Part shown: piece by piece, positions 3,671-26,299 of the stretch | Layout of the letters: every line of letters starts with the position of its first letter | Numbering within the stretch: position 1 is the stretch's first letter | NCBI GenBank assembly: GCA_002480925.1 | Contig: DLDA01000005.1 | Location: 1-32,016 of the forward strand | Direction: 5' to 3' | Source: Lachnospiraceae bacterium UBA7784 | GTDB lineage: Bacteria > Bacillota > Clostridia > Lachnospirales > Lachnospiraceae | DNA: 32,016 bases | Notes under the pieces: model-generated | Told to the model about the DNA's origin: nothing | Databases searched by the model: none | Seen by the model: the letters and a program-made list of their open reading frames with translations, nothing else | Position numbers and translations under genes: made by a program

Positions 3671-4708
3671 ATGGAAATGCAGATGGAATTCGTAAGGAAG
3701 CTTCCGACGCCGCAGGAGATCAAGGAACAGTATCCTCTGAAGGAGGAGACAAGGACCCTTAAGGAAAAGAGGGACCAGGAGATCTTTGATATCTTTACAG
3801 GTAAGGATAAGGAGCGGATACTCCTTATCATTGGTCCGTGCTCTGCGGACAATGAAGACTCGGTGCTTGACTATATGACAAGGCTTGCCGGTCTTCAGGA
3901 GAAGGTAAAGGATAAGATCTTTATAATACCGCGCGTCTATACCAACAAGCCGCGTACCACAGGACTTGGCTACAAGGGGATGTTTACCCAGCCAGACCCG
4001 GAGAAGGGAGCCGATCTGCTCGGAGGAATAATAGCCATCCGTCATATGCATATGAGGGTTGTCGAGGAGACAGGCTTCACCTGCGCAGAGGAGATGCTTT
4101 ATCCGGGGAATCACAGATATCTTTCTGACCTGCTTTCCTATGTGGCGATCGGTGCCAGATCTGTCGAGAATCAGGAGCATCGTCTGACGGCGAGCGGGAT
4201 AGGTATACCTGCAGGAATGAAGAATCCTACCAGCGGCGATATTTCCGTTATGATGAATTCCATAATCGCGGCTCAGAACCCTCATACCTTTATCTACAGA
4301 GGCTGGGAGGTCCATACGACCGGCAATCAGTATACTCATGCCATAATGAGAGGATATGTGGACAAATTCGGAAGGAATCACGCCAATTATCACTACGAGG
4401 ATCTGAAGGATGTATGCGGACTCTATGAGAAGCATCCTGAGCTGAAGAATCCGTCTATCATCGTCGACTGCAATCATTCCAATTCAGGTAAGAAATATCT
4501 GGAGCAGATCCGCATAGCAAAGGATGTGATGAACAGCAGAAGGCTTTCAGCCGAGATCGGCAGAGTGGTAAAGGGCCTTATGATAGAGTCATATATAGAG
4601 GACGGCGCCCAGAAGATCGGCGAAGGAGTCTATGGAAAGTCGATCACAGATCCATGCCTCGGATGGAAGAAGACCGAGAGATTAGTGCAGGAGTTGGCGG
4701 AGAGGTAG
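3671..4708 (+). CDS. aroF: 3-deoxy-7-phosphoheptulonate synthase (DAHP synthase, class I)
   Basis: This enzyme condenses phosphoenolpyruvate with erythrose-4-phosphate, the first step of the shikimate route to aromatic amino acids, in the cytosol. The 345 residues match the short AroFGH-type class I enzyme: IIGPCSADNEDSVLDYMTRLAGL, IPRVYTNKPRTTGLGYKG (PEP/E4P binding RxxxxKPRT), ENQEHRLTASGIGIPAGMKNPTSG, and IVDCNHSNSGK for the metal-binding Cys/His set. The start at 3671 follows AAAGGAG. The N-terminal extension of about 45 residues, typical of the feedback-regulated group, is present. Which aromatic amino acid inhibits it cannot be told. Its stop codon lies inside the first unit of a heptanucleotide repeat array, so the last codons (GAGAGGTAG) already have repeat sequence. 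Confidence 0.95.
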   Translation: MEMQMEFVRKLPTPQEIKEQYPLKEETRTLKEKRDQEIFDIFTGKDKERILLIIGPCSADNEDSVLDYMTRLAGLQEKVKDKIFIIPRVYTNKPRTTGLGYKGMFTQPDPEKGADLLGGIIAIRHMHMRVVEETGFTCAEEMLYPGNHRYLSDLLSYVAIGARSVENQEHRLTASGIGIPAGMKNPTSGDISVMMNSIIAAQNPHTFIYRGWEVHTTGNQYTHAIMRGYVDKFGRNHANYHYEDLKDVCGLYEKHPELKNPSIIVDCNHSNSGKKYLEQIRIAKDVMNSRRLSAEIGRVVKGLMIESYIEDGAQKIGEGVYGKSITDPCLGWKKTERLVQELAER

Positions 4709-4873
4709 GGGAGGAAGGTTAGAGGTGAGAGGTTAGAGGTGCGAGAGGAGGAAGGTTAGAGGTTAGAGGTTAGAGGTGCGAGGAGAGGAAGGTTAGAGGT
4801 GAGAGGTTAGAGGTACGAGGGGAGGAAGGTTAGAGGTGCGAGGGGAGGTAGGTTAGAGGTTAGAGGTGCGAGG
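4702..4873 (+). repeat. Heptanucleotide array, GGTTAGA/GGTGAGA/GGTGCGA type
   Basis: A purine-rich tandem array starts at the aroF stop codon. Units are mostly GGTTAGA, GGTGAGA, GGTGCGA and GGTACGA (equivalently GAGGTNN), broken by GGGGAGGAA-like spacers that create a higher-order repeat of about 30-40 bp. On the aroF mRNA every unit offers GAGGU, which resembles a Shine-Dalgarno core. The array is followed at 4887 by an array of opposite polarity, so the two can pair as a long imperfect hairpin. Confidence 0.9.
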
Positions 4874-4886
4874 AATGTGATACTTA

Positions 4887-5082
4887 GGACCTCGGATTTA
4901 ACACCTCAGACCTCGAACCTCACACCTCAGGCCTCAGGCCTCAGACCTCAGACCTCGGACCTCAGACCTCGCACCTCACACCTCAGACCTCAGACCTCAG
5001 ACCTCAGACCTCGCACCTCACACCTCAGACCTTACACCTCAGGCCTCGGACCTCGCACCTCGGACCTCAGACCTCGCACCTC
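4887..5082 (-). repeat. Heptanucleotide array, 28 units of NNACCTC
   Basis: Twenty-eight consecutive 7-bp units in perfect phase (196 bp), nearly all of the form NNACCTC (AGACCTC, ACACCTC, GCACCTC, GGACCTC) with rare variants AGGCCTC, AGACCTT and GGATTTA. Read on the minus strand, the sense of aspA, each unit is GAGGTNN. The aspA reading frame enters the array from the right and ends inside it at 5039. The stretch 4709-5038 contains no gene. It is filled by this array and the preceding one. Confidence 0.93.
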
Positions 5083-6460
5083 CCCCTACCGCCTTCGACA
5101 GATCGAGCAGGCTGTCAAGCTCCTTTTCTGTGAAGCAGCCTGTCTTTTTGGCCTCCTCGCGGACTGATGTCCCGTTGTGGAGGGCGGACTTTGCTATAGC
5201 GGCAGCCCTCTGATAGCCTATCTTAGGGCTTAATGCAGTAGCGATACCTGTAGAGCCCTCGGCCAGTGAGAGGCAGTGGTCCTTATTGGCGGTCAGATCA
5301 AGGATGCAGTTGTCGACAAGAGTCTTTATAGCGCCGGTTACTGAGGTGATCGACTCGAAGAGCTGGTAGAAGGTCACAGGTTCAAAGGCGTTGAGCTCCA
5401 TCTGTCCGGCTTCCGCAGCCATCATTATGGTAGCGTCATGGCCAGCCACGAGGAAGGCGACCTGAGTCACGACCTCAGGAATGACAGGGTTTACCTTGCC
5501 AGGCATTATAGATGAGCCGTTCTGTCTGGCGGGAAGATTGATCTCATGAAGGCCGCATCTCGGGCCGCTTGATAGGAGGCGCAGATCGTTGCACATCTTT
5601 GAGATCGACATCATGCCGGCCTTTATGGCTCCTGAGACAGCCACGAAGCCGTCAAGATCCTCTGTTGCATCAAAGAGATCATCGGATTGTCTTAGAGAAA
5701 GACCGGAGACCTTCGACAGGATAGGTACTATATTGTTCACATAATAGCCGGATGCGTTTATGCAGCTTCCAATGGCAGTTCCGCCCATGTTTACGGATTT
5801 CATTTCATCAAGAGACTTCTCGATCCTTGAAGCAGCACGCTTCACCATAGTAGCATAGGCATGGAAGGTGTCTCCTAAAGTCATAGGGACAGCATCCTGA
5901 AGCTGGGTACGCCCCATTTTTATCACATCTGAGAATTCAAAAGCCTTTGCCATAAGAGCACGATACAGGCGTCCGAGCTGATCTAACATAGGACGGGAAA
6001 GGGTAAGTACAGTCATCTTTCCGGCAGTAGGAATAGTGTCGTTTGTAGACTGCCCCATGTTTACATCATCGTTGGGATGAACGAAATATTTATCACGGCC
6101 GCCTCCGAGGATCTCAGTGGCCCTGTGGGCAATGACCTCGTTCATGTTCATGTTTGCTGAGGTGCCGGCACCGCCCTGGACGGGATCTACGATGAAGGCC
6201 TCCATCAGATCTCCGGCGATGATCTGGTCGCAGGCGCTCATTATGGCCCTGGCCTTTTCGGAAGTAAGGTCACCTGTATGAGAGTTGGCAATGGCAGCAG
6301 CCTTTTTTATTATAGCAAGATTACGAAGGAACTCCTTGTTCATCTGCTGGCCTGTGATCCTGAAATTGACTTTTGCGCGGAGAGCCTGTACTCCATAGTA
6401 TGCATCTGCCGGGATCATCATGCGCCCGATTGAATCTGCTTCGAGTCTTGTGTTTACCAT
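5039..6460 (-). CDS. aspA: Aspartate ammonia-lyase (aspartase)
   Basis: Catalyses the reversible deamination of L-aspartate to fumarate and ammonia. The 473 residues show the fumarase/aspartase fold: VNTRLEADSIG and PADAYYGVQALRA at the N-terminus, GGAGTSANMNMNEVIA, GRTQLQDAVPMTLG (the aspartase rather than the fumarase version, which has THLMDATPLT), and the flexible catalytic loop GSSIMPGKVNP at residues 315-325. The last ~14 residues (GGARSEVRGARSEA) are encoded by the heptamer array, so the natural C-terminus has been replaced or extended by repeat-derived sequence. It is divergent from an Lrp/AsnC-type regulator, which makes amino-acid-responsive control plausible. A terminator-like hairpin precedes the start. 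Confidence 0.92.
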   Translation of the reverse strand: MVNTRLEADSIGRMMIPADAYYGVQALRAKVNFRITGQQMNKEFLRNLAIIKKAAAIANSHTGDLTSEKARAIMSACDQIIAGDLMEAFIVDPVQGGAGTSANMNMNEVIAHRATEILGGGRDKYFVHPNDDVNMGQSTNDTIPTAGKMTVLTLSRPMLDQLGRLYRALMAKAFEFSDVIKMGRTQLQDAVPMTLGDTFHAYATMVKRAASRIEKSLDEMKSVNMGGTAIGSCINASGYYVNNIVPILSKVSGLSLRQSDDLFDATEDLDGFVAVSGAIKAGMMSISKMCNDLRLLSSGPRCGLHEINLPARQNGSSIMPGKVNPVIPEVVTQVAFLVAGHDATIMMAAEAGQMELNAFEPVTFYQLFESITSVTGAIKTLVDNCILDLTANKDHCLSLAEGSTGIATALSPKIGYQRAAAIAKSALHNGTSVREEAKKTGCFTEKELDSLLDLSKAVGGGARSEVRGARSEA

Positions 6461-14529: not shown

Positions 14530-15477
14530 ATGGCTATCGGAAATATCGGAGGCTATGGGAATATCAATACATATTCCTACAGGCCTAAGACCACAGGAAA
14601 GAAAAAGACAGACGAGACGGACAACTCCAAGGATCAGGTGAATAAAGGAAGCAATGCAGCCCAGACTGCAAAGGACACTGATCCGGCAGGCACTGACAAG
14701 AAGGTGACAGCTGCAAAGGATGCCGATGATCAGGAGCTCTATACAAAGGGAAGGACAATCGGCAAGCCGACTCTTTCAAAGAAAGCTGCTGAGTATTATG
14801 AGAAGCTTCAGAAGAAGTTCGGCAATATGCAGTTTATCCTGGTATCGGAGGATCAGAAGAAGTCAGCTGAAGCCAATGCTGCAAGCTTCGCTTCAAAGAC
14901 TAAGACCACAGTCCTTATAAATGAGGACAAGATCGAGGAGATGGCAAATGATGAGAACGTCGCAAAGAAGTACGAAAGCATCATTGCCAATTCCGAGAAG
15001 CAGCTTCCGGATCTGAAGAAGCAGCTTGAGTCAGCAGTTGGCTCATCCAATCTCAAGGGCATAGGCATGCAGATCAATGATAATGGGGCAGTAAGCTTCT
15101 TTGCGACTGTCCGTGATCAGGGAGCCGCAAGCGCAAAGGCTCTGAAGGAGAGACAGGCAGCCAAGAAGGAGGCCAGGAAGGCCGCTGAGAAGAAGGCAGC
15201 CAGGAAGGAGGCAAAGGAGAAGAAGGAGGAAGCTCTTAAGGAGAAGCAGAAGGATCAGAAGACTGATCAGACAGATACTTCTAAGAAGACCTCTGACGAC
15301 GATTATGTGGAGAAGGATCCGGACAGCGATCAGACCGGAGAAGTCACTCCATGGGATATGTATGGCACGAAGACTATATATGCTTCTTCGATAGATGATC
15401 TTATAAAGGCAGTAAAGAGCTTTTCGGCAGGATCATCTGCCTATGCATCTGGTAATTCAATAAACTATGAGGGCTGA
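14530..15477 (+). CDS. DUF6033-like lysine-rich protein, possible flagellar-regulon member
   Basis: A 315-residue protein of unknown function. The N-terminus (MAIGNIGGYGNINTYSY) is glycine/tyrosine-rich. A polar linker (residues ~20-75, K/D/T/A-rich) follows. A conserved-looking core spans ~80-200 (AEYYEKLQKKFGNMQFILVSEDQK... TVLINEDKIEEMANDENVAKKYESIIANSEKQL... IGMQINDNGAVSFFATV). A charged helical segment at ~205-250 is almost pure K/E/A/R (coiled-coil-like), then a short acidic C-terminus. The core resembles DUF6033 proteins of Lachnospiraceae as I remember them, and a profile search would settle it. There is no signal peptide or membrane segment. The start follows AAGGAGG. The sigma-D-type promoter suggests co-expression with flagellar genes. 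Confidence 0.65.
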   Translation: MAIGNIGGYGNINTYSYRPKTTGKKKTDETDNSKDQVNKGSNAAQTAKDTDPAGTDKKVTAAKDADDQELYTKGRTIGKPTLSKKAAEYYEKLQKKFGNMQFILVSEDQKKSAEANAASFASKTKTTVLINEDKIEEMANDENVAKKYESIIANSEKQLPDLKKQLESAVGSSNLKGIGMQINDNGAVSFFATVRDQGAASAKALKERQAAKKEARKAAEKKAARKEAKEKKEEALKEKQKDQKTDQTDTSKKTSDDDYVEKDPDSDQTGEVTPWDMYGTKTIYASSIDDLIKAVKSFSAGSSAYASGNSINYEG

Positions 15478-15502: not shown

Positions 15503-16246
15503 ATGTACAAGCTTGCAATATACGGAAAAGGCGGCATCGGGAAGTCTACAATGACTGGCAATCTCGCGGCTGCCTTTTCCTTTTTAGGAAAAAAGGTAAT
15601 ACAGATAGGCTGTGATCCGAAGGCTGATTCGACAATGAACCTGCTCGGAGGCAGACCACTGGTCCCGGTAATGGATCTTTTGAGGGACGATAAGGATATA
15701 GATTCGATAGAGGACGTGTCTGCGGTAGGATACGGTGGAGTCGTCTGCATAGAGACAGGCGGCCCTACTCCGGGTGTGGGATGCGCCGGAAGAGGGATCA
15801 TAGCTACGTTCAATATACTTAAAAGCCTTGAACTTGTTGATCAGATAAAACCCGACGTTATCCTTTTCGATGTGTTGGGAGATGTGGTCTGCGGAGGCTT
15901 TGCGGCACCCATACGCGAGGGCTATGCGGACGAGGTCATGATAGTCACATCCGGAGAGAAGATGGCTCTTTATGCAGCCGACAACATAAACCGGGCCGTT
16001 AAGAATTTCCAGGACAGGAGCTATGCCGGTGTCAGAGGCATTCTGTTGAATAAGAGAAATGTCCCTGATGAGGATGAAAAGGTAGCTGCCTTTGCAAGGG
16101 AAAGGGATCTGTCTGTTGTAGGAAGGATACCGCGCTCCGATGATATAAACCGCGCCGAGGAGGAAGGAAAGACAGTAATAGAGATGGATCCGACACTTGA
16201 GATCAGCCGTGATTTCATAGAGCTTGCAGAGAGGCTTTTGAAATAG
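15503..16246 (+). CDS. NifH-like Fe protein (nitrogenase-like reductase component)
   Basis: A 247-residue member of the NifH/BchL/ChlL/CfbC ATPase family, which donates electrons one at a time to a component-1 partner while hydrolysing ATP. The P-loop is GKGGIGKST at residues 8-16 and the switch motif is GCDPKADST at 37-44 or so. The two cysteines that hold the intersubunit [4Fe-4S] cluster are present: Cys94 in GVGCAGRG and Cys130 in [15 protein letters not shown]. It is shorter than NifH (about 290) through loss of the C-terminal extension, close to the CfbC length. AAAGGA lies close to the ATG. It is followed 19 nt later by the two-domain component-1 gene, its probable electron acceptor. 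The reduced substrate is unknown. Confidence 0.93.
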
Positions 16247-16265
16247 GAGCTTGAAAGGAAATCAG

Positions 16266-18554
16266 ATGTCAGCACTTATGTACAGGGCGGGGGAGCTTTT
16301 TTCAGAGATAAAAAGGGACAGGAGGGACTGGGTCCCGGAGGAGTTTAGGACCGGGAACGGACTTGTTTACTCGTCACCGGCCACTCTTGCATACAATTCT
16401 CCGGGGGCCGAGGGCTTCGGGGTGAAGCGCGCGGCCCTTTCTGTGCCTGAGTCCGTCGAACTTATCATATCGCCAGGCTGCTGTGGCAGGAATACATCAG
16501 AGATCTCATCTATGGATGGCTATCAGGACAGATTCTACTATCTGACCATGGATGAGGCAGACATAGTAAGCGGCAGATACTTAAAGAGGATCCCAAAGGC
16601 CCTGAAGCGTATATTAAGCGACAGGAGCAGAATGTCCCTTCCCCTCCCGCGGGTCGTCATGCTTGTCACCACCTGTGTCGATGCCCTGATGGGGACCGAT
16701 ATGGACAGGATAGCCGGTATCTGTGAGAGAGAATGTGGTGTGGCAGTAAGACCGGCCTATATGTATGCGCTGACCCGTGAAGGAGTGAAGCCTCCTATGG
16801 TCCAGGTGGGAGAAAGTATTTTTTCCCTGCTGGAGAAAAGAGATAAGGATCCTCTGGCGGTAAATATTCTGGGCTCATATGGAGGCCTGCTGCCTGCTTC
16901 ACTGGCAGAGCTTAGGGATATACTCTCATCAGCAGGGCTATGCCGCTGCCGTGAGCTTAGTGACTGTGCGGATTTTGATGAATTCATGAAGATGTCTGAG
17001 GCATCCCTTAATATACAGGTCTATCCTGATGCAGTAGGAGAGGCGGAGGAGATGAACAGGCGCTTCGGCACAGGCTATGTCGAATTGCAGAGATTTTACG
17101 GCATTGAGAGGATCACATCCCAGTACAGAGCCCTGCTTTCCTATCTGGGAGCAGATGACCAGATCCTTACGACATACAGGGACAGGGTAGTTAAAGATAT
17201 TGAACCTATAAAAGAGGCGGTCTCGATAGGGGAATGCATAAACGGAAATCCGGCTGAGCTTGCACTCTCCCTGATGGAATGCGGATATAAGGTAGCAGAG
17301 GTCTTTACAGCCCTGTCTGCAAACGATGCTTACTACATTGCCCGTATAGCGGCAATAGATCCTGATGTGAAATTCTATTTCAACCAGCATCCGTCCATGG
17401 TTGACTTTGAACCGGATAAGGATGCAGGTCTCTGCCTTGGCAGGGATGCCTCATGGTATTACAGGGACAGTGATGTAGGATGCATTGACAGCTCAAGCGA
17501 GGCTGAGCCCTTCGGCTACTCTGGACTTGAAAGGCTTATAAGGCAGATATCAGGAGATGTCCCGGTGAAAAAGACCACAAGGGTCACATCCGTGACTCCG
17601 CGATCAGAAGAGCCCATCCAGGGAGAGGTGCTTCGCGGCTACCGCAGGGCCCTTACACCATTTGCGCCTGACCAGTCAGGTGCCGTGGAGGTCTTAAGGC
17701 AGATCGAGGGGATGATGGTAGTGGTCCTTGATGCCGGAGGCTGCACAGGAAATATATGCGGCTTTGACATAAGGGACTGGGAGCAGAATCCTTCTATGAT
17801 CTTTTCCGCCGGACTCAGGGATATGGATGCGGTCTTCGGCAGAGACGAAGAGCTTATCAGAAAGATAAAGAAGGCAGCAGGCCTGCTTGATCCGGCATAT
17901 ATAGCTCTTGTCGGGACACCGGTTCCATCTGTCATAGGAACAGACCTTAACGGACTTTCCATTCAGGTCGAAAGGGCCTGCGGGATAAGGACCATATCAG
18001 TAGATACAAATGGCTGTGACTATTATGACAAGGGAATGGAAAAGGCCTACAGCAGGATCCTTGCAGATCACATAGGCGAGGATGGCCTGCTCCCCGGCCT
18101 TAGCGCACTTGACTATACGGACAGCGAGATCGCATCTATCAGGGAAAGGAATCCTAAGCCGGCAGCATTCTCCGTGGCAGGCCTTGAGGCAGCAGGTGGC
18201 AGGGTGGCTGCGTCGGAGCTTATGGTATCTGAGGAGATACAGCAGAAGCTTTCTATTGCAGCGGATAAGAAAAGGATCCTTATAATAGGAGAGCAGCTCT
18301 ATTCAAATGCTCTCCGCGAGCTTATTGAGAAAGAAAACAGTAAGGCCAGGGTCATGGTCGCGGATTTTTTCACTATGAAAAAAGAGCTTAAAAGGCAGGA
18401 TGATGTAAGGCTTGGCTCAGAGGATGATCTGATACGTCTGCTATCTGAATATGACCCTGATCTGATAGCCGCTGACCCGATCCTTAGGGAGCTTGTGCCT
18501 GGATACAGCGGAGAGTGGATAAACAGGAGACATTTCGCTCTGTCAGGACGGTGA
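16266..18554 (+). CDS. Two-domain nitrogenase component-1-like protein (NifD-NifK-like fusion)
   Basis: A 762-residue single chain that appears to contain two tandem oxidoreductase/nitrogenase component-1 domains. Domain 1 (~35-430) has ISPGCCGRNTS (Cys72, Cys73), LTMDEADIVSG (compare the NifD/K DxxExDIVxGG pattern) and VVMLVTTCVDALMGTDMD (Cys137). These positions resemble P-cluster cysteines. Domain 2 (~470-762) has LDAGGCTGNICGFD (Cys493, Cys498), AGLRDMDAVFGRDEELI and IALVGTPVPSVIGTDL, but Thr551 stands where domain 1 has Cys137. The two domains would form the heterotetramer half that NifD and NifK form as separate proteins. I chose the ATG at 16266 after AAAGGA. An upstream TTG at 16251 is unlikely. 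The substrate is unknown, and it is not a canonical N2-fixing nitrogenase. Confidence 0.85.
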   Translation: MSALMYRAGELFSEIKRDRRDWVPEEFRTGNGLVYSSPATLAYNSPGAEGFGVKRAALSVPESVELIISPGCCGRNTSEISSMDGYQDRFYYLTMDEADIVSGRYLKRIPKALKRILSDRSRMSLPLPRVVMLVTTCVDALMGTDMDRIAGICERECGVAVRPAYMYALTREGVKPPMVQVGESIFSLLEKRDKDPLAVNILGSYGGLLPASLAELRDILSSAGLCRCRELSDCADFDEFMKMSEASLNIQVYPDAVGEAEEMNRRFGTGYVELQRFYGIERITSQYRALLSYLGADDQILTTYRDRVVKDIEPIKEAVSIGECINGNPAELALSLMECGYKVAEVFTALSANDAYYIARIAAIDPDVKFYFNQHPSMVDFEPDKDAGLCLGRDASWYYRDSDVGCIDSSSEAEPFGYSGLERLIRQISGDVPVKKTTRVTSVTPRSEEPIQGEVLRGYRRALTPFAPDQSGAVEVLRQIEGMMVVVLDAGGCTGNICGFDIRDWEQNPSMIFSAGLRDMDAVFGRDEELIRKIKKAAGLLDPAYIALVGTPVPSVIGTDLNGLSIQVERACGIRTISVDTNGCDYYDKGMEKAYSRILADHIGEDGLLPGLSALDYTDSEIASIRERNPKPAAFSVAGLEAAGGRVAASELMVSEEIQQKLSIAADKKRILIIGEQLYSNALRELIEKENSKARVMVADFFTMKKELKRQDDVRLGSEDDLIRLLSEYDPDLIAADPILRELVPGYSGEWINRRHFALSGR

Positions 18555-18560
18555 AGGATT

Positions 18561-20972
18561 TTGCAGTATTATCTTATAAATATATATGGAATAGTGCAGG
18601 GGGTGGGCTTCCGCCCCTTTGTAAGCAGGCTTTTTTCAAAAAAAGGAATAAAAGGAAGCGTGAAAAATACCGGCTCTTGCGTAGAGATACTTCTGGCAGG
18701 AGATATAGCAGGAGACGGACTTTTGGACAGGATAAGGGAGAAGGCGCCTTATAGGGCTGATATTGTAGAGATAAGCCTGTCTCCTGTCACTGAGGATGAA
18801 TACGAGAAGAGGATAAAAGGAGATATACCCGTTGCAGGTGAGGAGGGTAAGGACTTTTTTATAGCAGAAAGCCCGGAAGGGGACATTGAGGATGCTCCGC
18901 TTTTTATCCCTCCTGATATAGCTATCTGTGACCAGTGTGCTTTGGAGCTTTATCAAAAGGGCTCGCGCAGATATCTGCACCCCTTCATTAACTGTACCCA
19001 GTGCGGGCCGAGGCTAACTATAATAGATTCACTTCCATATGACAGGAAACGTACTTCCATGAAGGATTTTCCTATGTGTCCCTCATGTGAGAAGGAATAC
19101 AGGGATCCATCCGACAGGAGATACGATGCCCAGCCGGTCTGCTGTAATGACTGCGGTCCCCTTCTTTATTTCCTTGAAAAGGATGACGGCGGCGGATTCG
19201 CTGAGACAGCCCGGAGGACAGATGCCATAACAAGGGCCAGACAGACTATAATCGACGGAGGTATAGTCGCAGTAAAGGGAATAGGGGGCTTTCATCTATA
19301 CTGTAATGCATGTGACAGTAAGGCAGTCGGGAGATTAAGAGAGCTAAAGGACCGGCCGGCAAAGCCGTTCGCCCTTATGGTATCATCTCTTGAAAGAGCA
19401 GGAGAGATCTGTGATCTGGAAGGAAGCTTCATAGCGGATCCATCCGAAAGAGAGGCATATCACAGGACGGCCATAAGGCTTCTTACAGGACACAGGAAGC
19501 CTATAGTGCTTTTAAGAAAAAAGTCTTCAGACCTGCCTGATATAATAGCACCTGATAATCCCTCACTTGGGATAATGCTTGCATATGCGCCGGTCCAGCT
19601 GCTTTTGTTTTCCTGTCCTGACGGACTTGACAAGGCCATGCCGGATGTCCTTGTCGCGACAAGCGCCAACAGGAGGGGCGGAGTCATATGCAGGGAAGAG
19701 GCCGATGTCATGGAAACCCTTGGCGGGGTCTGTGACGGTATACTTTCAAACGACAGGCCCATACTTACGAGAGCAGATGATTCTGTAGTCGATATATACA
19801 GGGGAGAGCCGTATATGATAAGGCGGTCGAGAGGCTATGCTCCTCTGCCTGTCGTTATTGAGAGGACCCGGACGGGGCCGGATGTGCTGGCGTTCGGAGG
19901 AGAGCTTAAGAATGCTTTTTGTATAGGAAGAGGATCCTTTATGTATCCCTCATCCTATATAGGGGATCTTTCGGATGTAAGGAGCACTAAGGCACTTGAT
20001 GAGACAGTGGATAGATTTATTGCCATGCTTGATGCAAGACCTGAGATCATAGTCGCAGACAAGCATCCGGGCTATATGAGCAGGGCAGCGGCCGAGAGAT
20101 ATCAAGCCGCCCATCAGGGCACAAGGCTTTATTATATCCAGCATCATTATGCCCATGTGCTTTCTGTAATGGCAGAAAACCATTATTATGACCAGACTAT
20201 CGGGATCTCCTTTGATGGCACAGGATACGGAGATGATCAGACCATCTGGGGTGGAGAGATATTTCTCTGCGATAGCAGGGACTACCGGAGAAAGGCCCAT
20301 ATAGCGCCGTTTATCCAGTCAGGAGGAGACATGGCAAGCCGGGAGGGATTTCGTATAGCTCTTTCAATGCTGTTTGACAGATATGAAGAAGGAGAGATAT
20401 GTGATATAATAAAAAGAACCGGCTTCTGTCAGGAGAAGTATCTGAGACCGCTTATGGCCATGCACGAGCGGAGGATAAATTCTGTATCTTCCACAAGCTG
20501 CGGCAGACTCTTCGATGCGGTAAGTGCTATCCTTGGTATAAGGGAAAGCTCAACCTTCGAGGGAGAGGCCTCTATGGCCCTTGAGTTCGCGGCAGAGAGA
20601 TATCTGAAGGAAAACCCGGGAGGAGGTTTTCCGTCAATGGAATTTACTGAAAGGCCAGGTATAATGCCGACCGATCAGCTCTTTTACCGGATAACAGAGG
20701 AGAGACTTTCCGGGAGAGATAAGGGAGAGCTTGCCTTTCTTTTCCATAAGGTCTTAGCCGAATTTACGACAGCTATGGCAGAGCGTATAAGAGAGGAAAG
20801 CGGATGCTCTGTCGCAGCTCTTTCAGGAGGCTGCTTTCAGAACAGGCTTCTTCTCTCGCTCACAGAGGACGGATTAAAGGAAAAAGGATTTAAGGTTCTG
20901 CGCGCCCATGAGATACCGCCGAATGACGGAGGAATAGCTCTCGGGCAGTGTTTGTATGGAAAGGTATTATAA
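18561..20972 (+). CDS. hypF: Carbamoyltransferase HypF
   Basis: Converts carbamoyl phosphate and ATP to a carbamoyl group on the C-terminal cysteine of HypE, the source of cyanide ligands for Fe(CN)2CO. The 803 residues show all expected domains. An acylphosphatase domain comes first (GIVQGVGFRPF at ~10-20). Then come four CxxC zinc-finger pairs (CDQC, CTQC, CPSC, CNDC), a YrdC-like domain (KGIGGFHLYCNA... RPAKPFALMV), and a Kae1-like domain (FGGELKNAFC, IQHHYAHVLSVMAE with the metal-binding HxxxH, ISFDGTGYGDDQTIWGGE, ALSGGCFQNRLL). No ATG fits. The start appears to be TTG at 18561, six bases after the previous stop codon, which keeps the usual distance to GIVQGVGFRPF. It is in the nif-like operon. 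Confidence 0.95.
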   Translation: MQYYLINIYGIVQGVGFRPFVSRLFSKKGIKGSVKNTGSCVEILLAGDIAGDGLLDRIREKAPYRADIVEISLSPVTEDEYEKRIKGDIPVAGEEGKDFFIAESPEGDIEDAPLFIPPDIAICDQCALELYQKGSRRYLHPFINCTQCGPRLTIIDSLPYDRKRTSMKDFPMCPSCEKEYRDPSDRRYDAQPVCCNDCGPLLYFLEKDDGGGFAETARRTDAITRARQTIIDGGIVAVKGIGGFHLYCNACDSKAVGRLRELKDRPAKPFALMVSSLERAGEICDLEGSFIADPSEREAYHRTAIRLLTGHRKPIVLLRKKSSDLPDIIAPDNPSLGIMLAYAPVQLLLFSCPDGLDKAMPDVLVATSANRRGGVICREEADVMETLGGVCDGILSNDRPILTRADDSVVDIYRGEPYMIRRSRGYAPLPVVIERTRTGPDVLAFGGELKNAFCIGRGSFMYPSSYIGDLSDVRSTKALDETVDRFIAMLDARPEIIVADKHPGYMSRAAAERYQAAHQGTRLYYIQHHYAHVLSVMAENHYYDQTIGISFDGTGYGDDQTIWGGEIFLCDSRDYRRKAHIAPFIQSGGDMASREGFRIALSMLFDRYEEGEICDIIKRTGFCQEKYLRPLMAMHERRINSVSSTSCGRLFDAVSAILGIRESSTFEGEASMALEFAAERYLKENPGGGFPSMEFTERPGIMPTDQLFYRITEERLSGRDKGELAFLFHKVLAEFTTAMAERIREESGCSVAALSGGCFQNRLLLSLTEDGLKEKGFKVLRAHEIPPNDGGIALGQCLYGKVL

Positions 20973-20973
20973 A

Positions 20974-21183
20974 ATGTGTGTTGGACTTTCAGCAAAGGTT
21001 GTAAGAAAAGATAAGGATGGGATCATAGTGGATTCCGGCGGAGCAAAAAGAAGGGTAAGGGACGATCTGCTCATGGACCTGCGTCCGGGAGACTATGTGA
21101 TGGTCCATGCGGGAGCAGCCATTTCAAGGATCACGGAAACCGATTCTAAGGAGGCTGCCTCTGTCTGGGAGTCATTCAAATGA
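20974..21183 (+). CDS. hypC: Hydrogenase maturation chaperone HypC
   Basis: A 69-residue protein that carries iron and CO2-derived ligand with HypD during Fe(CN)2CO assembly. The invariant Cys2 is present (MCVGLSAKV), provided the ATG at 20974 is used. The in-frame ATG at 20956 would bury that cysteine and lies inside hypF. The family motif MCxxxP has Ser at position 6 and no proline. The OB-fold core VDSGGAKRRVRDDLL..LRPGDYVMVHAGAAISRI is normal. GGAAAGG precedes the start, one base separates it from the hypF stop codon, and its TGA overlaps the hypD ATG. Confidence 0.93.
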   Translation: MCVGLSAKVVRKDKDGIIVDSGGAKRRVRDDLLMDLRPGDYVMVHAGAAISRITETDSKEAASVWESFK

Positions 21184-22226
21184 GCGCCCTTGAGGAGGCC
21201 CGTTCATTCCTCAGTGGATATAAGGGCAGAAGACTCAGGATAATGGAGGTCTGCGGAACCCATACCCACGAGATAGCCAGAGACGGGATCAGGAATATCC
21301 TCTCACCTGACATAGAGCTTATATCAGGTCCGGGCTGCCCGGTCTGTGTGACTCCGGCAGGATATATAGACGAGGCTGTTCTTCTGGCTCTTGATAAGGG
21401 CTGTACCATTACTACCTTCGGTGACCTGGTAAGGGTGCCGGGCTCAGAAAAGTCCTTGGCTGATGCCAGGAGAGAGGATGCCCGTATACAGGTGGTATAT
21501 TCTCCGGTCGATGCGGTTTCCTATGCCAGAGAGCATCCTGATGAACAGGTCGTTTTCCTTTCTGTTGGCTTCGAGACCACTACTCCGTCCGAATGTCTGG
21601 CTGTGCAGGAGGCTGATAGGGAGGGTATTTCCAATTTTTCCCTTCTTACTGCCAATAAGACCATGCCAGAGGCCTATCTGGCAATGAAGGATTCTACGGA
21701 CGCGTTTCTCTATCCGGGGCATGTCCACGCTATTACAGGTATGTCGATCTGTGAGGACTTCCGCGACAGATACCAGATAAGCGGAGTCATAGCAGGCTTT
21801 ACACCTGAGGAGCTTGTAGTGGCGATAGCTCTCTGCGTAAAGGGCCTTATAAAGGGTCAGCCGTTTGTTATAAATGCATATCCGAGGGTCGTGCGTCCGG
21901 AAGGGTCTCCTAAGGCAGTTTCTCTTATTGAGAAATATATGGAGCCTGTGGACGCCGTATGGCGCGGTATAGGAGAGATAAAGGGATCGGGCCTCGCCTT
22001 AAGGGAGGAATATGCTGCCTTTGACGCAAGGAAGAAATTTTCCCTGCCGGTTATAGAGGGACGTGACAACCCGGCCTGCCGGTGCGGAGAGGTCCTTCAG
22101 GGGAAATGCAGCTCTACGGAATGTCCTCTTTTCGGAAAAGTCTGCACTCCTGAGCATCCTGTTGGTGCCTGCATGGTCTCCTCAGAGGGAGCCTGCTCTG
22201 CCTTCTATCTCTATCGGAGGAAATAA
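21180..22226 (+). CDS. hypD: Fe-S protein HypD, Fe(CN)2CO assembly
   Basis: Scaffold on which Fe receives two CN and one CO, working in a complex with HypC and receiving cyanide from HypE. The 348 residues contain EVCGTHTHEI (Cys25), GPGCPVCVTP (Cys53 and Cys56, the thiol pair) and FGDLVRVPGS, then SVGFETTTP, YPGHVHAITG and the C-terminal cysteine-rich part (Cys at 300, 302, 310, 315, 322, 331, 339) that includes the four [4Fe-4S] ligands. All catalytic cysteines I expect are present, so it looks functional. ATGA overlap with hypC and TAATG overlap with the next gene show translational coupling. Confidence 0.96.
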   Translation: MSALEEARSFLSGYKGRRLRIMEVCGTHTHEIARDGIRNILSPDIELISGPGCPVCVTPAGYIDEAVLLALDKGCTITTFGDLVRVPGSEKSLADARREDARIQVVYSPVDAVSYAREHPDEQVVFLSVGFETTTPSECLAVQEADREGISNFSLLTANKTMPEAYLAMKDSTDAFLYPGHVHAITGMSICEDFRDRYQISGVIAGFTPEELVVAIALCVKGLIKGQPFVINAYPRVVRPEGSPKAVSLIEKYMEPVDAVWRGIGEIKGSGLALREEYAAFDARKKFSLPVIEGRDNPACRCGEVLQGKCSSTECPLFGKVCTPEHPVGACMVSSEGACSAFYLYRRK

Positions 22227-23521
22227 TGCTTGAATTCGGAATGCCGGTTCACGAGAGCTGGAACATAGTACATATAGCCATGCAGGTGCCCGGATCCCAT
22301 CAGATCTATGTGGCCCCTGACAACTGTCTTCGCGGAGTCGTGATGAGCGCCTATGAGATGGATGCAGGAGACAGGTTTTCATGCGTGGCTGTAGATGAAA
22401 GAGACCTTCTTACCGACAGCCTTGAGACAGTGACTGTAGAGGGCTGCTCGGAGGTAATAGATGAGCTTATAGCCGGAGGAAACAAGCCTTCGGTGATATT
22501 TCTTTTCACGGTCTGCTCCCACAGGATGCTTTCATGTGATTTCACCTATGTATTTGATACGATAAGGGAGAGATATCCCGACATCATTCTTGCTCACGGA
22601 TATATGGACTGTATTTCGCAGAAGGAGGAGGCTTTCCCGGACCAGAAGCTAAGACGTGAGATGTACTCATTTATTCCGGCAAAAGACCCGGTACGTGCAG
22701 TGAATCTGATCGGCAGTGAGGTCACAGCGACAGCAGTAAATAACGACCTGCTGGCCATATTTTCTGCGGCAGATATTCCGGTAAGGCAGCTTTCGGGCAT
22801 AAGGACCTTTGAAGGATATATGGACCTTGGAAATGCTTCGCTTAATATCTGTACATATATGGCCGGAGACATGGGAGTATCTGCCTTTTCAGAAAGGACA
22901 GGGATCCCCTATCTATACGCACTTCCCTTCTGGGATGACCGCTCGCTTATCGATCAGCTGACAAGACTTAAGGAAATGTTTCCTGATCAGAGGCTTGCTG
23001 TGGCGGTGGAGGGCTTTCTGTCTGATCTGGACAGGGCCTCCGCCTCAATGCTTGCAGAATACCGGAGATTTGCAGAAGAGATAAAAGGAGTGCCTGTAGC
23101 AGTTGATAATCTGGGATGCAGCTGTCCTTATTCGCTGGCCTTCTATCTGCTTGAGGCAGGATTTGATGTCAGATGGGTGATCTCCCCGGGCCCTATGGAT
23201 CATGAAATGGCTATCTATCAGAGGCTTATGGACAGGTATCATATCATCTCGATCGATCCGGCTGATCCGGCCTTACGCGAGCTTTCATACAGGAGGAGCC
23301 TTATCGGAGAATCGGAAAGGATCCTTGCGAGCGGGCCACGTGCGGCCTGGATCTTTGACAGTCCTTACTTTGTCGATATGATAGAGGATGACGGAGCCTT
23401 CGGGATAGCCGGCAGGAGGGCCCTTCTTATGAAACTCCGGGAGGCCATGGCAAATCCGAAGGATACAGCTGCCATAATAAGGAAAAAGGCCAGAGGACTT
23501 ATAAGCTGTATCGCTCAGTAA
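22226..23521 (+). CDS. Nitrogenase component-1-like protein (second, single-domain)
   Basis: A 431-residue protein of the oxidoreductase/nitrogenase component-1 type. The N-terminus HIAMQVPGSHQIYVAPDNCLRG (Cys34) is followed by Cys53 and by SVIFLFTVCSHRMLSCDF (Cys97, compare the family pattern of strand-T-C-...-D). This three-cysteine spacing resembles a cluster-binding site. Later, VDNLGCSCPYSLAFYLLEAGFDV (Cys298, Cys300) resembles the P..g...t..fL..lGf strand-helix unit. It is divergent from both domains of the 762-residue protein. It is the last gene of the operon, starting one base inside the hypD stop codon, which ties it to the Hyp proteins rather than to NifH alone. It may be a scaffold (NifEN-like) or a second catalytic component. 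Confidence 0.75.
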   Translation: MLEFGMPVHESWNIVHIAMQVPGSHQIYVAPDNCLRGVVMSAYEMDAGDRFSCVAVDERDLLTDSLETVTVEGCSEVIDELIAGGNKPSVIFLFTVCSHRMLSCDFTYVFDTIRERYPDIILAHGYMDCISQKEEAFPDQKLRREMYSFIPAKDPVRAVNLIGSEVTATAVNNDLLAIFSAADIPVRQLSGIRTFEGYMDLGNASLNICTYMAGDMGVSAFSERTGIPYLYALPFWDDRSLIDQLTRLKEMFPDQRLAVAVEGFLSDLDRASASMLAEYRRFAEEIKGVPVAVDNLGCSCPYSLAFYLLEAGFDVRWVISPGPMDHEMAIYQRLMDRYHIISIDPADPALRELSYRRSLIGESERILASGPRAAWIFDSPYFVDMIEDDGAFGIAGRRALLMKLREAMANPKDTAAIIRKKARGLISCIAQ

Positions 23522-24308
23522 AGTCGCCTCTTATGGCAGCGCCGTGGTCCATTGGGCCGCTGCCCTGACCCAGGTCGAGGCCTGCACTTATTATAGTGCT
23601 TATATATTCCTTGGCCAGACGGACAGAGGCCGTAAGTGAATTACCCTTTGCCAGGTTTGCTGCTATGGCCGAGGACAAGGTACAGCCTGTGCCGTGGGTA
23701 TTCGGATTGTCTATATGAAGCCCCGGGAATGATACGGTTCTTTTTTCGCTGACCAGATAGAGATAGTCGGATGGGACTGACAGATGCCCTCCCTTTACAA
23801 GGACATTTGTCTGATACTTATCTCCGATCAGTCTGGCAAGCCAGGAAGGGCTCTCCTCCTCCCCTGCCAGAGAGATGGCTTCAGGGTAGTTGGGGGTTAT
23901 TAGCAGGGCCATAGGAAGCAGGTGAAAAAGGGCTTCTCTGGCCTCATCAGACAGGAGAGGAGTGCCGGAGCTTGAGATCATGACCGGATCTATCACGACG
24001 GGAGATCCGATAAGACGGATGCATTCTTCTACGGTCCTTAACAGAGGCTTGGTCCCGACCATACCGACCTTTATAGCAGCTGGATGTATATCATCCGCTG
24101 CGGTCATGATCTGCTGCTTTAAAAGCCCGGCCGGGACAGGCTCCACGGCTTTTACACCTGTGGTATTCTGGGCTGTGATATTTGTCACGGCTCCCATTCC
24201 ATAGACTCCGTTTGCCAGAAGGGTTTTTATATCTGCAATGAGTCCGGCGCCGCCTGACGGATCGAGGCCGGCTATTGACAGGACTGCAGGGATCTTTGTG
24301 AACTTCAT
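23499..24308 (-). CDS. thiD: Hydroxymethylpyrimidine/phosphomethylpyrimidine kinase ThiD
   Basis: Phosphorylates HMP and HMP-P for thiamine synthesis or salvage. The 269 residues contain VLSIAGLDPSGGAGLIADIKTL, NITAQNTTGV, IKVGMVG, VVIDPVMISSSGTPLL, ITPNYPEA, VLVKGGHL and HGTGCTLSSAIAANLAKG (anion hole and catalytic region), all typical. GGAGG lies six bases before the ATG. No TPP riboswitch fits between it and the divergent rimI gene. Its last 23 nt overlap the end of the convergent nif-like gene, so it interrupts the hyp cluster without obvious functional relation. Confidence 0.96.
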   Translation of the reverse strand: MKFTKIPAVLSIAGLDPSGGAGLIADIKTLLANGVYGMGAVTNITAQNTTGVKAVEPVPAGLLKQQIMTAADDIHPAAIKVGMVGTKPLLRTVEECIRLIGSPVVIDPVMISSSGTPLLSDEAREALFHLLPMALLITPNYPEAISLAGEEESPSWLARLIGDKYQTNVLVKGGHLSVPSDYLYLVSEKRTVSFPGLHIDNPNTHGTGCTLSSAIAANLAKGNSLTASVRLAKEYISTIISAGLDLGQGSGPMDHGAAIRGDFTERYSL

Positions 24309-24355
24309 TTATTACCTCCATGACTTTTATGGTTTATGGATATATGATAGCATTT

Positions 24356-24790
24356 ATGACAGTAAAAGTTGCAGAAAAAAATGATTTTGGGGCTCTGGCG
24401 GCTATTTCTCTGGCCTCCATGAGTGAGCCCTGGAGCGAGGCAGATTTTGTGGCAGCCAGCGAGAATCCATTTGCTATCGTACTTAAGGCAGAGGATGAGA
24501 ATGGCCCTGCCGGATATGCGGTAGGATATTTTGCGGCTGACGAGGCCGAGCTTCCATCTATAGCTGTAAAGGCCTCCTGTCGCGGACGGGGGATTGGCAG
24601 CAGGCTTTTATCGGAGCTTTCTGATGCGGTGAGAGAAAAGGGAGCATCTAAGCTCTTTCTCGAGGTCAGGGAGTCAAACGAGGCTGCGCTGGCTCTTTAT
24701 CAGAAGAATGGCTTTATCACAGCCGGAGTAAGAAAAAGGTTTTACAGGGATCCCGATGAGGATGCCTTTGTTATGATGAGATTATTATAA
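24356..24790 (+). CDS. rimI: Ribosomal-protein-alanine N-acetyltransferase-like GNAT enzyme
   Basis: A 144-residue GNAT acetyltransferase close to RimI: SMSEPWSEADF (the RimI PWS box), DEAELPSIAVKASCRGRGIGSRLL (acetyl-CoA binding RGxGIG), LFLEVRESNEAALALYQKNGF and RKRFYRDPDEDAFVMM. RimI acetylates the N-terminus of ribosomal protein S18, and related proteins modify other N-termini. The start is uncertain. I prefer the ATG at 24356 (MTVKVAEK), because the frame upstream to 24320 adds a hydrophobic stretch not seen in the family, but no strong ribosome binding site precedes either. It is 14 nt upstream of hypE. Confidence 0.85.
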   Translation: MTVKVAEKNDFGALAAISLASMSEPWSEADFVAASENPFAIVLKAEDENGPAGYAVGYFAADEAELPSIAVKASCRGRGIGSRLLSELSDAVREKGASKLFLEVRESNEAALALYQKNGFITAGVRKRFYRDPDEDAFVMMRLL

Positions 24791-24804
24791 GGTTAGGAGA
24801 CGAA

Positions 24805-25800
24805 ATGACAGAAAAGGTTACCCTTGCCATGGGCGGAGGCGGAAAGGCCACTGGAGAGCTTATTGAGGAGGTATTTGCGAAGGAGCTAAAAAATAAATAT
24901 TTCACATCGGATGATGCTGCGGTGCTTCCGACCCCTGCCGGAAGGATGGCTATGTCAACGGACGGCTTTATAGTAAGTCCGGCCATCTTTCCGGGCGGAA
25001 ACGTCGGTAAGCTGTCTGTATGCGGTACTGTAAACGATCTGGCCTGCATGGGAGCCCGTCCTCTCTATCTGACCTGTTCATTCGTGATAGAGGAGGGCTT
25101 TCCTATAGCTGATCTGAAGCTCCTTGTTTCCTCGATGGCAAGGACAGCCAGAGAGGTGGGTGTCATGGTCGTGGCAGGTGATACCAAGGTCGCCCGCCGG
25201 GGTCAGGCTGACGGCTGCTTCATCACTACTGCCGGAGTCGGAGAGATAATGCCTGGTGTCTCTCCTGCAGGAAACAGGGCAAGGCAGGGAGATACCATAA
25301 TTGTCACAGGAGATATAGGCCGTCATGCGGCTGCTATAGCTGTCGCAAGAGATGAGTTCGGCATAGAGTCGGATGTGACCTCGGACTGCGCCCCGCTCTG
25401 GAAGCCGGTCGAGGCTGTGCTTAAGGAAGTGCCGGATGTCCATGTGATAAGAGATGCGACAAGGGGAGGGGTCGGGACCGTTCTGCACGAGATAAGCCGT
25501 GAGAGCGGTGTCGGCATAAGAGTTGACAGGGATCGGATCCCGGTAGACCCCAAGGTCCAGGGAATCTGCGATATGTTAGGCTTTGATCCTCTGAACCTGG
25601 CCTGCGAGGGCCGTATGGTCATAATTGCAGAAAAGGAAAGAGAAGAAGAGATCATAAAGATCCTCCATGGCTTTGAGTATACATCCGGCGCCTGCGCTAT
25701 CGGAGAGGTAAGAGGAGACTCAGTGACCGTAAGGACCCCGATCGGGACAGAGACCTATCTGCCGGAGGCCTCGACAGAGCTGTTGCCGAGGATTTGTTAG
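24805..25800 (+). CDS. hypE: Carbamoyl dehydratase HypE
   Basis: Dehydrates the thiocarboxamide on its own C-terminal cysteine to thiocyanate, then gives cyanide to HypCD-bound iron. The 331 residues belong to the PurM/AIR-synthase fold: MGGGGKATGELIEEVF, DDAAVLP, TDGFIVSP, VCGTVNDLACMGARP, VAGDTKVARRG, RDATRGGVGTVLHEI and CEGRMVI. It ends exactly with PRIC, the C-terminal cysteine needed for carbamoylation. The last glycine/alanine-type positions are normal. AGGAG precedes the ATG. It is separated from hypFCD by thiD and rimI but is probably part of the same pathway. Its stop codon runs straight into a GAGGT heptamer array. Confidence 0.96.
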   Translation: MTEKVTLAMGGGGKATGELIEEVFAKELKNKYFTSDDAAVLPTPAGRMAMSTDGFIVSPAIFPGGNVGKLSVCGTVNDLACMGARPLYLTCSFVIEEGFPIADLKLLVSSMARTAREVGVMVVAGDTKVARRGQADGCFITTAGVGEIMPGVSPAGNRARQGDTIIVTGDIGRHAAAIAVARDEFGIESDVTSDCAPLWKPVEAVLKEVPDVHVIRDATRGGVGTVLHEISRESGVGIRVDRDRIPVDPKVQGICDMLGFDPLNLACEGRMVIIAEKEREEEIIKILHGFEYTSGACAIGEVRGDSVTVRTPIGTETYLPEASTELLPRIC

Positions 25801-25871
25801 GTGTTAGGTGTGAGGTGAGAGGTGAGAGGTGAGAGGTGCGAGGTGAGAGGTGAGAGGTGTGAGGTGAGAGG
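25798..25871 (+). repeat. Heptanucleotide array (GAGGTGA) after the hypE stop codon
   Basis: Starting at the hypE TAG, about nine or ten units of GAGGTGA, GAGGTGC or GAGGTGT follow (the first as TTAGGTG-type variants). It is the same consensus GAGGTNN as at 4702-5082, again with the purine-rich strand as the sense strand of the upstream gene. It passes directly into the 68-bp repeats. Confidence 0.9.
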
Positions 25872-26071
25872 CCGAAAGCTTCGAGATGAGAGCAAGCCAA
25901 AGGCGAAGCTCGAATCAGAAGCGAGGTCGTTCTGTGAGGCCGAAAGCTTGTAGGCGAGAGCAAGCCGAAAGCGCAGCTCAAGCCACAAGCGAGGCCGCTG
26001 TCTGAGGCTGAAAGTTTCGAGGTGAGAGCAAGCTGAAAGCGCAGCTCGAACCCGAAACGAAGCCGTTCTTT
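25868..26071. repeat. Three tandem 68-bp repeats
   Basis: Units at 25868-25935, 25936-26003 and 26004-26071 have exactly equal length and begin GAGGCCGAAAG, GAGGCCGAAAG and GAGGCTGAAAG. Shared blocks are GAGAGCAAGC at unit positions 21-30 and a CAGCTC/AAGCTC block near position 40. No spacer-like unique sequence separates them, so they are not a CRISPR array. Confidence 0.9.
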
Positions 26072-26299
26072 GAGATTAATGAGAGCGAACCATAGGCGCA
26101 GCTCGAATTTAGCGAAAAGAACTTCCTTGTTAATGAGACCGAGCTGATAAGCGAAGGTCGAACCTAGCGAAGAGAACTTCCTTATAGGCGAAGCTTGAGC
26201 TTAGCGAGCAGAACTTCATTACTATCAAGAACGAGTCGAAGACGAAGTTCGAGCTTAACGAAGACAGATTCCTTATTAACGAAAACAGCATCTTTGTGG
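26072..26299. repeat. Degenerate repeats continuing the 68-bp family; no gene
   Basis: Shortened, diverged copies follow, recognisable by recurring TAGCGAA-GAACTTCCTT blocks (AACTTC near 26120, 26175 and 26212, and a GATTCCTT variant near 26268) and GGCGAAG/GGCGCAG-CTCGA blocks. Unit spacing falls to about 37-55 bp. I see no credible reading frame on either strand, no tRNA and no recognised RNA. The 631 bp between hypE and mutS2 contain only repeats, one terminator and the mutS2 promoter. Confidence 0.75.

Follow-up and report, generated by a model that had tools for sequence, protein, structure and literature searches.

Among the described systems closest to the one analyzed here, the maturation of [FeFe] hydrogenases by HydE, HydF and HydG relies on HydG, which usually makes the CO and CN ligands found in the H-cluster and is the known source of the Fe(CO)2CN unit, and in the maturation of [NiFe] hydrogenases by HypABCDEF, the chemistry of HypF, HypE, HypC and HypD is established. 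The other relevant systems are the NifEN scaffold and DPOR (BchN-BchB)/CfbCD; in DPOR, a single interface [4Fe-4S] cluster is held by three plus one cysteines. Here we describe a gene cluster from Lachnospiraceae bacterium UBA7784, located in a 32,016-nucleotide (nt) stretch of contig DLDA01000005.1 (hereafter, the window), that combines genes of these kinds: a NifH-like reductase (nifH1), a fusion of the first pair of nitrogenase component-1-like proteins (D1 and K1), hypF, hypC, hypD, a second component-1 protein (C1x, the partner of which in relatives is denoted C1y), and hypE. We propose, with a probability of roughly three in four, that the Hyp proteins and the nitrogenase-like reductases replace HydG in building the [FeFe] hydrogenase H-cluster. 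The genomes directly show the genes and the conservation of their order, the linkage to TM1266, HydE and HydF (in a few loci also to HydA) and the near-complete exclusion of HydG; the chemistry is inferred.

The H-cluster is suggested as the target by the exclusion of HydG together with the gene context. The exclusion was traced in 150 genomes from the family of the window, 381 genomes from its class, and 50 of the 80 named genomes with C1x. These samples overlap slightly (G000 is in both the family and class samples, and G124 and G192 have identical coordinates), and C1x matches were called strong at 391 bits or more, as opposed to 295 bits or less, a line set after the gap in scores was seen. 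In the family sample, HydG, HydE and HypD exceeded the cut-off in 73, 85 and 23 genomes, respectively, and C1x was strong in 10; all 10 of these encode HydE, and none encodes HydG. The class sample yielded HydG in 237 genomes (236 by hand tally), HydF in 257 (258 by hand tally) and strong C1x in 16, with HydF in 16 of 16 and HydG in 0 of 16. Among the named C1x genomes, HydG exceeded the cut-off in 1 of 50. The Fisher p values for HydG versus strong C1x, uncorrected for relatedness, are 9.6e-10 among HydE-positive and 5.9e-18 among HydF-positive genomes. The switch is seen even within genera: six species of genus g212 carry C1x without HydG and three carry HydG without C1x, with two versus one such species in g292 and one versus one in g344.

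The possibility that HydG hides among weak profile matches was considered and rejected. Apart from one genome at 936 bits and one with no match, the best HydG scores in the 50 named C1x genomes are 55-206 bits, compared with 335-959 bits for HydG above the cut-off in the family search; the weak matches apparently correspond to HydE and ThiH, HydE itself scoring 81-93 bits. Genomes with mid-score C1x matches served as a control. The five that were read in the family all contain stand-alone nitrogenase-like/ABC operons (L090, L129-L132); two of these genomes carry HydG, one (G048) has HydE without HydG, and two have neither. In the class, judged by scores only, HydG is present in three of four mid-score genomes.

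A search with C1x identified 235 relatives in named genomes, and the locus counts given here refer to the best 80 of these, many of which end early at contig ends. The main order is nifH1-D1-K1-hypF-hypC-hypD-hypE-(nifH2)-C1x-C1y, in hosts that include many Lachnospiraceae, other Clostridia, Sharpea and Olsenella. Most of the 80 loci retain this order, so the grouping goes beyond chance, and the notion of a lineage oddity was discarded. Together with the window, these loci contain 81 C1x, 73 hypE, 71 C1y, 70 hypD, 66 hypC, 64 hypF, 52 D1, 51 nifH1 and 45 K1 genes. In most relatives, D1 and K1 are two separate genes and C1x is paired with C1y; the D1-K1 fusion of the window recurs in some loci (for example, L003, L008 and L066). 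In one locus, the position of nifH2 and C1x is occupied by a single open reading frame (ORF) of about 698 amino acids that scores as nifH2, an apparent fusion (L144:8709-10805), and protein P0154 likewise carries both Pfam domains.

The commonest additional neighbors, identified by clustering the other genes of the loci, are a TM1266-family protein, HydF and HydE, with examples above the NCBI cut-offs. TM1266 is found in 59 of the 80 C1x loci, HydF in 37, HydE in 24, and HydF and/or HydE in 45. In Sharpea azabuensis and S. porci (L018, L022), the entire set lies on a single strand in the order HydA-nifH-D1-K1-hypF-C-D-E-C1x-C1y-HydF-HydE-HydA, that is, the cluster is flanked by two [FeFe] hydrogenase genes. 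HydA was detected in 5 of the 119 loci screened (L018, L022, L064, L100 and L152); in L152, it is a group A6 enzyme, above the cut-off, encoded immediately upstream. In HydG-containing genomes, 20 regions around HydE show HydE, HydG and HydF together in 18, with HydG central in 16 and TM1266 nearby in 12. In C1x genomes, nifH2-C1x-C1y sit between TM1266 and HydF, the usual place of HydG. HydE and HydF themselves are nearly alike in the HydG-positive and HydG-negative sets; a residue signature separating the two was sought and dropped, because it comes down to a single diagnostic column in each protein from which no mechanism could be gained.

The genome of the window (97.7% complete, 54 contigs) fits this pattern. 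It encodes HydE (TIGR03956, 526 bits, at the end of contig C36), HydF (TIGR03918, E 4.3e-157) and a group B1 [FeFe] hydrogenase (TIGR04105, 577 bits, above the cut-off) with the H-cluster motifs TSCCPAF and EGMACPGGCVGG, and it has no HydG, the best TIGR03955 match reaching 180.8 bits against a cut-off of 312. A profile search of this genome for the [NiFe] large subunit (PF00374) gave zero matches; the preliminary description of the window had named a [NiFe] hydrogenase with hypA/hypB and a protease as an alternative reason for the Hyp genes, and, on the basis of the large subunit, the idea that these genes are leftovers of such a hydrogenase was rejected. The [FeFe] hydrogenase is present in 49 of the 50 named C1x genomes. 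Anaerobutyricum hallii DSM 3353 (L061, the same genome as G187) combines the full cluster from nifH to C1y with five HydA matches, and its draft genome has no HydG above the cut-off and no PF00374 match. In the available text of PMC5593888, where this strain was used, E. hallii is named as an H2 producer.

Within the window, ORFs were assigned with Pfam and NCBIfam/TIGR models at the models' own cut-offs (Table 1). The ORF list and the family scans bear out the description of six tightly spaced genes on one strand, followed by hypE: between nifH1 and C1x, two junctions are gaps of 4 and 6 nt and all others are overlaps. Two genes outside the module, thiD and rimI, separate C1x from hypE. The nitrogenase-like proteins exceed the Pfam cut-offs and fall below every NCBI equivalog cut-off; for the D1-K1 fusion, which is below the nifD, nifK, nifE and nifN cut-offs, the top NCBIfam model is nifE, at 84 bits against a cut-off of 505.

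Table 1. Genes of the cluster and other annotated genes in the window
Gene or product	Position	Strand	Basis of assignment
NifH-like ATP-dependent reductase (nifH1 type)	15503..16246	+	Fer4_NifH 286.6 bits; below nifH/CfbC/bchL equivalog cut-offs
D1-K1 fusion, two-domain nitrogenase component-1-like protein	16251..18554	+	Oxidored_nitro 140 bits
hypF, carbamoyltransferase	18561..20972	+	TIGR00143 703 bits, above cut-off
hypC, chaperone	20956..21183	+	TIGR00074 above cut-off
hypD	21180..22226	+	TIGR00075 393 bits, above cut-off
C1x, second component-1-like subunit	22226..23521	+	Oxidored_nitro 37 bits, above Pfam cut-off
thiD, interrupting gene outside the module	23499..24308	-	TIGR00097 above cut-off
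rimI, interrupting gene outside the module	24320..24790	+	TIGR01575 above cut-off
hypE	24805..25800	+	TIGR02124 395 bits, above cut-off; 1.3 kb beyond C1x
Aspartate ammonia-lyase	5039..6460	-	NF008909 622 bits, above cut-off; aspA equivalog TIGR00839 546 bits, below cut-off

Key residues of NifH1 and of the Hyp proteins are conserved. NifH1 residues C37, C82, C94 and C130 are kept in 46 of 46 aligned copies, the zinc-finger cysteines of HypF (the C123-C198 set) in 100% of 55, C8 and H51 of HypC in 64 of 64, C25, C53, C56, C300, C302, C315, C322, C331 and C339 of HypD in 66 of 66, and the C-terminal C331 of HypE, its last residue, in 65 of 65. We therefore infer that the Hyp chemistry operates here as well. 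In a 40-row alignment, C77, C78 and C142 as well as C498 and C503 of D1-K1 are invariant. Three cysteines are kept in 16 of 17 C1x proteins and one in 13 of 13 C1y proteins, a pattern that, by analogy with DPOR, fits a single cluster at the interface. The sole exception is C1x of the window itself, in which C34 and C97 are kept and alanine replaces C30; because of this substitution, we regard the window copy as divergent and other copies as better suited for study. At the position that we take to be that of the cofactor-ligand cysteine of NifE/NifD, no cysteine is aligned in D1 or C1x of the window, the alignment there being weak.

The AlphaFold models of C1x (pLDDT 88.1) and D1-K1 (pLDDT 85.9) both adopt the component-1 fold. 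The best solved matches of C1x are the MoFe, Fe and V nitrogenases, NifEN and DPOR, and that of D1-K1 is the fused NifEN 9i0g_A (E 5.7e-21); by sequence, NifE is the nearest solved protein to both D1 and C1x. Unlike the NifEN scaffold, the window proteins score far below the nifE and nifN cut-offs, show another pattern of cluster cysteines and are not encoded in a nif operon here. The system shares with DPOR and CfbCD a NifH-type reductase together with a component 1, but the scanned proteins are below all equivalog cut-offs and the context is that of the H-cluster rather than of tetrapyrroles. Similarly, the four Hyp proteins resemble those of [NiFe] maturation, with scores above the NCBI cut-offs and conserved cysteines, whereas their operon partners are nitrogenase-like and, in relatives, include HydE and HydF.

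The roles of NifH and the component-1 proteins are proposed on the basis of family chemistry, gene order and the swap with HydG. In the scheme that we favor, HypF and HypE would convert carbamoyl phosphate to cyanide on the C-terminal cysteine of HypE, and, as happens for [NiFe] hydrogenase, this cyanide would be transferred to iron bound by HypC-HypD to form an Fe-(CN)x-CO unit. Paired with the NifEN-like D1-K1, NifH1 would then use ATP-driven low-potential electrons to reduce and re-ligate the Hyp-made unit, as might NifH2 (or NifH1) with the DPOR-like C1x-C1y and its predicted three-plus-one cysteine cluster. Re-ligation could mean, for example, that CO is supplied or one CN is shed, to yield a low-valent Fe-CO-CN-thiolate form acceptable to HydE, after which HydE and HydF would complete the H-cluster as usual. 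The component-1 proteins would thus be reductases or scaffolds on the way to the H-cluster, and the window genome would carry a derived version, with D1-K1 fused and C1x devoid of a neighboring C1y.

The cluster comes in two forms. Type A contains the Hyp/D1K1 half. In all seven strong-C1x genomes without a D1 match, a Peripla_BP_2/FecCD/ABC importer of the corrinoid/siderophore class stands in place of that half, beside nifH2-C1x-C1y (type B: G117 and G134 in the family; G268, G341, G426, G565 and G573 in the class). The lack of a D1 match means here that the C1x profile gave no second match, and D1 may be missed in the class, where the search scored at most four candidates per genome. HydE and/or HydF lie in the same operon in five of the seven (G117, G134, G268, G426 and G573), TM1266 is found in five (G117, G134, G341, G426 and G565), and all seven have HydE, HydF or TM1266. 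The NCBIfam models leave the importer cargo unnamed: those for B12, heme and Fe-siderophore are below the cut-off, and the binding protein matches none. The HypD search covered the family sample, in which HypD and a D1 match occur together in 8 of the 10 strong-C1x genomes and are both absent from the other 2; in the class, the Hyp/D1K1 half is known from the loci read (G320, G357, G408 and G515).

In a maximum-likelihood tree of 40 rows, all C1x form one group (100/100), as does D1 (100/100), albeit on a long branch flagged by the program. Within the C1x group, type A and type B rows are intermingled, and well-supported branches force at least two changes of form. Because both forms mix inside this clade, C1x is the part that stays constant, and what has been exchanged is the upstream half. 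It is conceivable, although we consider it doubtful, that the H-cluster is built from an Fe-CO/CN precursor that diffuses and can be imported, with type A making this precursor via HypCDEF and NifH1-D1-K1, type B importing it, and nifH2-C1x-C1y being the committed, HydG-replacing step in both.

Several observations weigh against the replacement of HydG by this system. All support for it is comparative genomics. Oliverpabstia intestinalis (L060), the single named C1x genome with HydG above the cut-off, carries both HydG and the C1x system. Conversely, 13 of the 29 HydF-positive, HydG-negative class genomes have no strong C1x; 8 of the 13 are less than 90% complete, and 5 are at least 90% complete (G359, G478, G481, G530 and G563). 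The same holds for 5 of the 15 HydE-positive, HydG-negative family genomes (G011, G048, G086, G128 and G142). Given these genomes, loss of HydG alone does not demand C1x; a third route, a missed HydG or dead systems are possible in them. Type B has no Hyp genes near C1x, and the two family genomes of this type have no HypD at all, so Hyp is not always needed; furthermore, the C1x trio is apart from the Hyp half in G071 and G091 and alone in the stretch read in G551. The stretches of the window and of L003-L007 show no HydE, HydF or TM1266, and neither C1y nor nifH2 is seen there (L005 has only a weak, distant component-1-like match; for the window, C1y and nifH2 were looked for in the stretch only), and the window C1x has lost C30. 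Of the 50 named C1x genomes, 9 have Ech-like [NiFe] matches (PF00374), and these 9 include G150, G153 and G154, three of the five genomes behind L003-L007; Hyp could therefore serve [NiFe] hydrogenase in them too and may have a double role in the L003-L007 lineage. Finally, the ligand counts differ. According to the portion of PMC9431212 available to us, the Hyp unit has two CN and one CO, and the available portion of PMC11736057 gives one CN and two CO for the H-cluster synthon, so an extra conversion is required. This mismatch is the main chemical gap in the proposal and may be the very step that the reductases solve.

Some other loci show arrangements of their own. In G359, with neither HydG above the cut-off nor strong C1x, a B12-binding radical SAM-like gene comes after TM1266-HydE-HydF (L146:6047-10298), possibly a third solution. 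The HydF-positive, HydG-negative genomes G478 and G563 contain divergent pairs of nifH and a component-1-like gene on very long branches (L149, L151). In G265, the HydE/HydG/HydF region reads as several broken pieces (L155:5054-7696).

Co-occurrence, together with the gene order kept across the loci of relatives, strongly supports the proposal of the preliminary description that a single product is served by both the Hyp and the nitrogenase-like machineries. The alternative that the pairing is chance operon packing, with the Hyp genes serving an Ech-type [NiFe] hydrogenase and the nitrogenase-like genes something else, could draw on the nine genomes with Ech-like matches, yet PF00374 is absent from the window genome and from 41 of the 50 named C1x genomes. 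In the family sample, 15 of the 23 HypD-positive genomes have a [NiFe] match (all but one only short and Ech-like, about 40-54 bits), and 7 of the remaining 8 have strong C1x (the exception is G051). Only one of the 10 strong-C1x family genomes, G069, has a [NiFe] match, with a second HypD beside the [NiFe] gene, and HypD and the D1 match are co-present in 8 of 8 and co-absent in 2 of 2. We consider such packing highly improbable.

The product itself was envisaged in the preliminary description either as a nitrogenase-like reductase holding an Fe-CN/CO group or as a scaffold elaborating the Hyp-made unit; both options missed the H-cluster as the target, and the scaffold version came closest. 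The former, a new enzyme that retains a Hyp-made Fe-CN/CO cofactor and catalyzes a reduction unrelated to hydrogenase, appears unlikely. With its two component-1 pairs and one or two NifH, each cluster does resemble catalytic machinery, and stand-alone nifH-D-K-ABC operons exist away from HydE and HydF; of the five such operons that were read, two come from HydG-containing genomes. These operons share protein families with the C1x cluster and the importer type with type B, but their D subunits group apart from C1x and D1 (85/88), and a new enzyme would leave the operon linkage to TM1266, HydF and HydE (and a few HydA) and the exclusion of HydG unexplained. Another scenario would have HydG lost and environmental CO and CN sufficient for HydE and HydF, with the C1x cluster making another H-cluster ingredient, such as the bridging dithiolate, or repairing or reducing the cluster. 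PMC9431212 reports that in vitro, with stray diatomics, HydE and HydF alone reached about 1% activation, and both HydG and strong C1x are missing from some HydF-positive genomes. Against this, HypFCDE is a dedicated CN/Fe machine in the same operon, and C1x takes the place of HydG and excludes it instead of adding to it; hence, we find this scenario very unlikely and favor the replacement of HydG by the Hyp and nitrogenase-like proteins.

Other features of the window are peripheral to this system. A DUF6033 gene (14530-15477) ends 25 nt upstream of nifH and occupies the same spot in L003 and L004, outside the wider module. Arrays of 7-base units (AGGTGAG, ACCTCAG) are located at 4707-5082 and 25806-25871, with further tandem repeats from 25868 to 26221. 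An aspA gene adjoins HydF in L060, L063 and L064, and aspA is reported near hyd operons in the accessible part of PMC11736057; the aspartate ammonia-lyase of the window, 9 kb from the cluster and on the opposite strand, is a possible source of ammonium for the H-cluster bridge, although the link is uncertain.

In the open-licence PMC literature, searched by titles and the beginnings of abstracts, no paper connects HydG-less [FeFe] maturation with Hyp or nitrogenase-like proteins; the parts belong to known families, and the pathway is without precedent found in that literature. The text of PMC9431212 at hand reports no detectable HydG in five of eight Clostridium acetogens and considers possible reasons, including an atypical HydG, none of them firm; HydG is absent from the available text of PMC10268494. 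The CO and CN ligands of the H-cluster are ascribed to HydG, and a second, unrelated route would mean that two supply lines evolved. If the proposal is correct, the assembly machineries of [NiFe] hydrogenase (Hyp), nitrogenase and [FeFe] hydrogenase would be joined in one pathway, HydG-less hydrogenase producers would be explained, and a tyrosine-independent maturation of [FeFe] hydrogenase would become available to biotechnology. The role of some uncharacterized nitrogenase-like clusters becomes directly testable. The hosts include common gut bacteria, such as Blautia, Coprococcus comes and Anaerobutyricum hallii, and should the organometallic hydrogenase precursor prove diffusible and importable, gut microbes may share it with one another or scavenge it.

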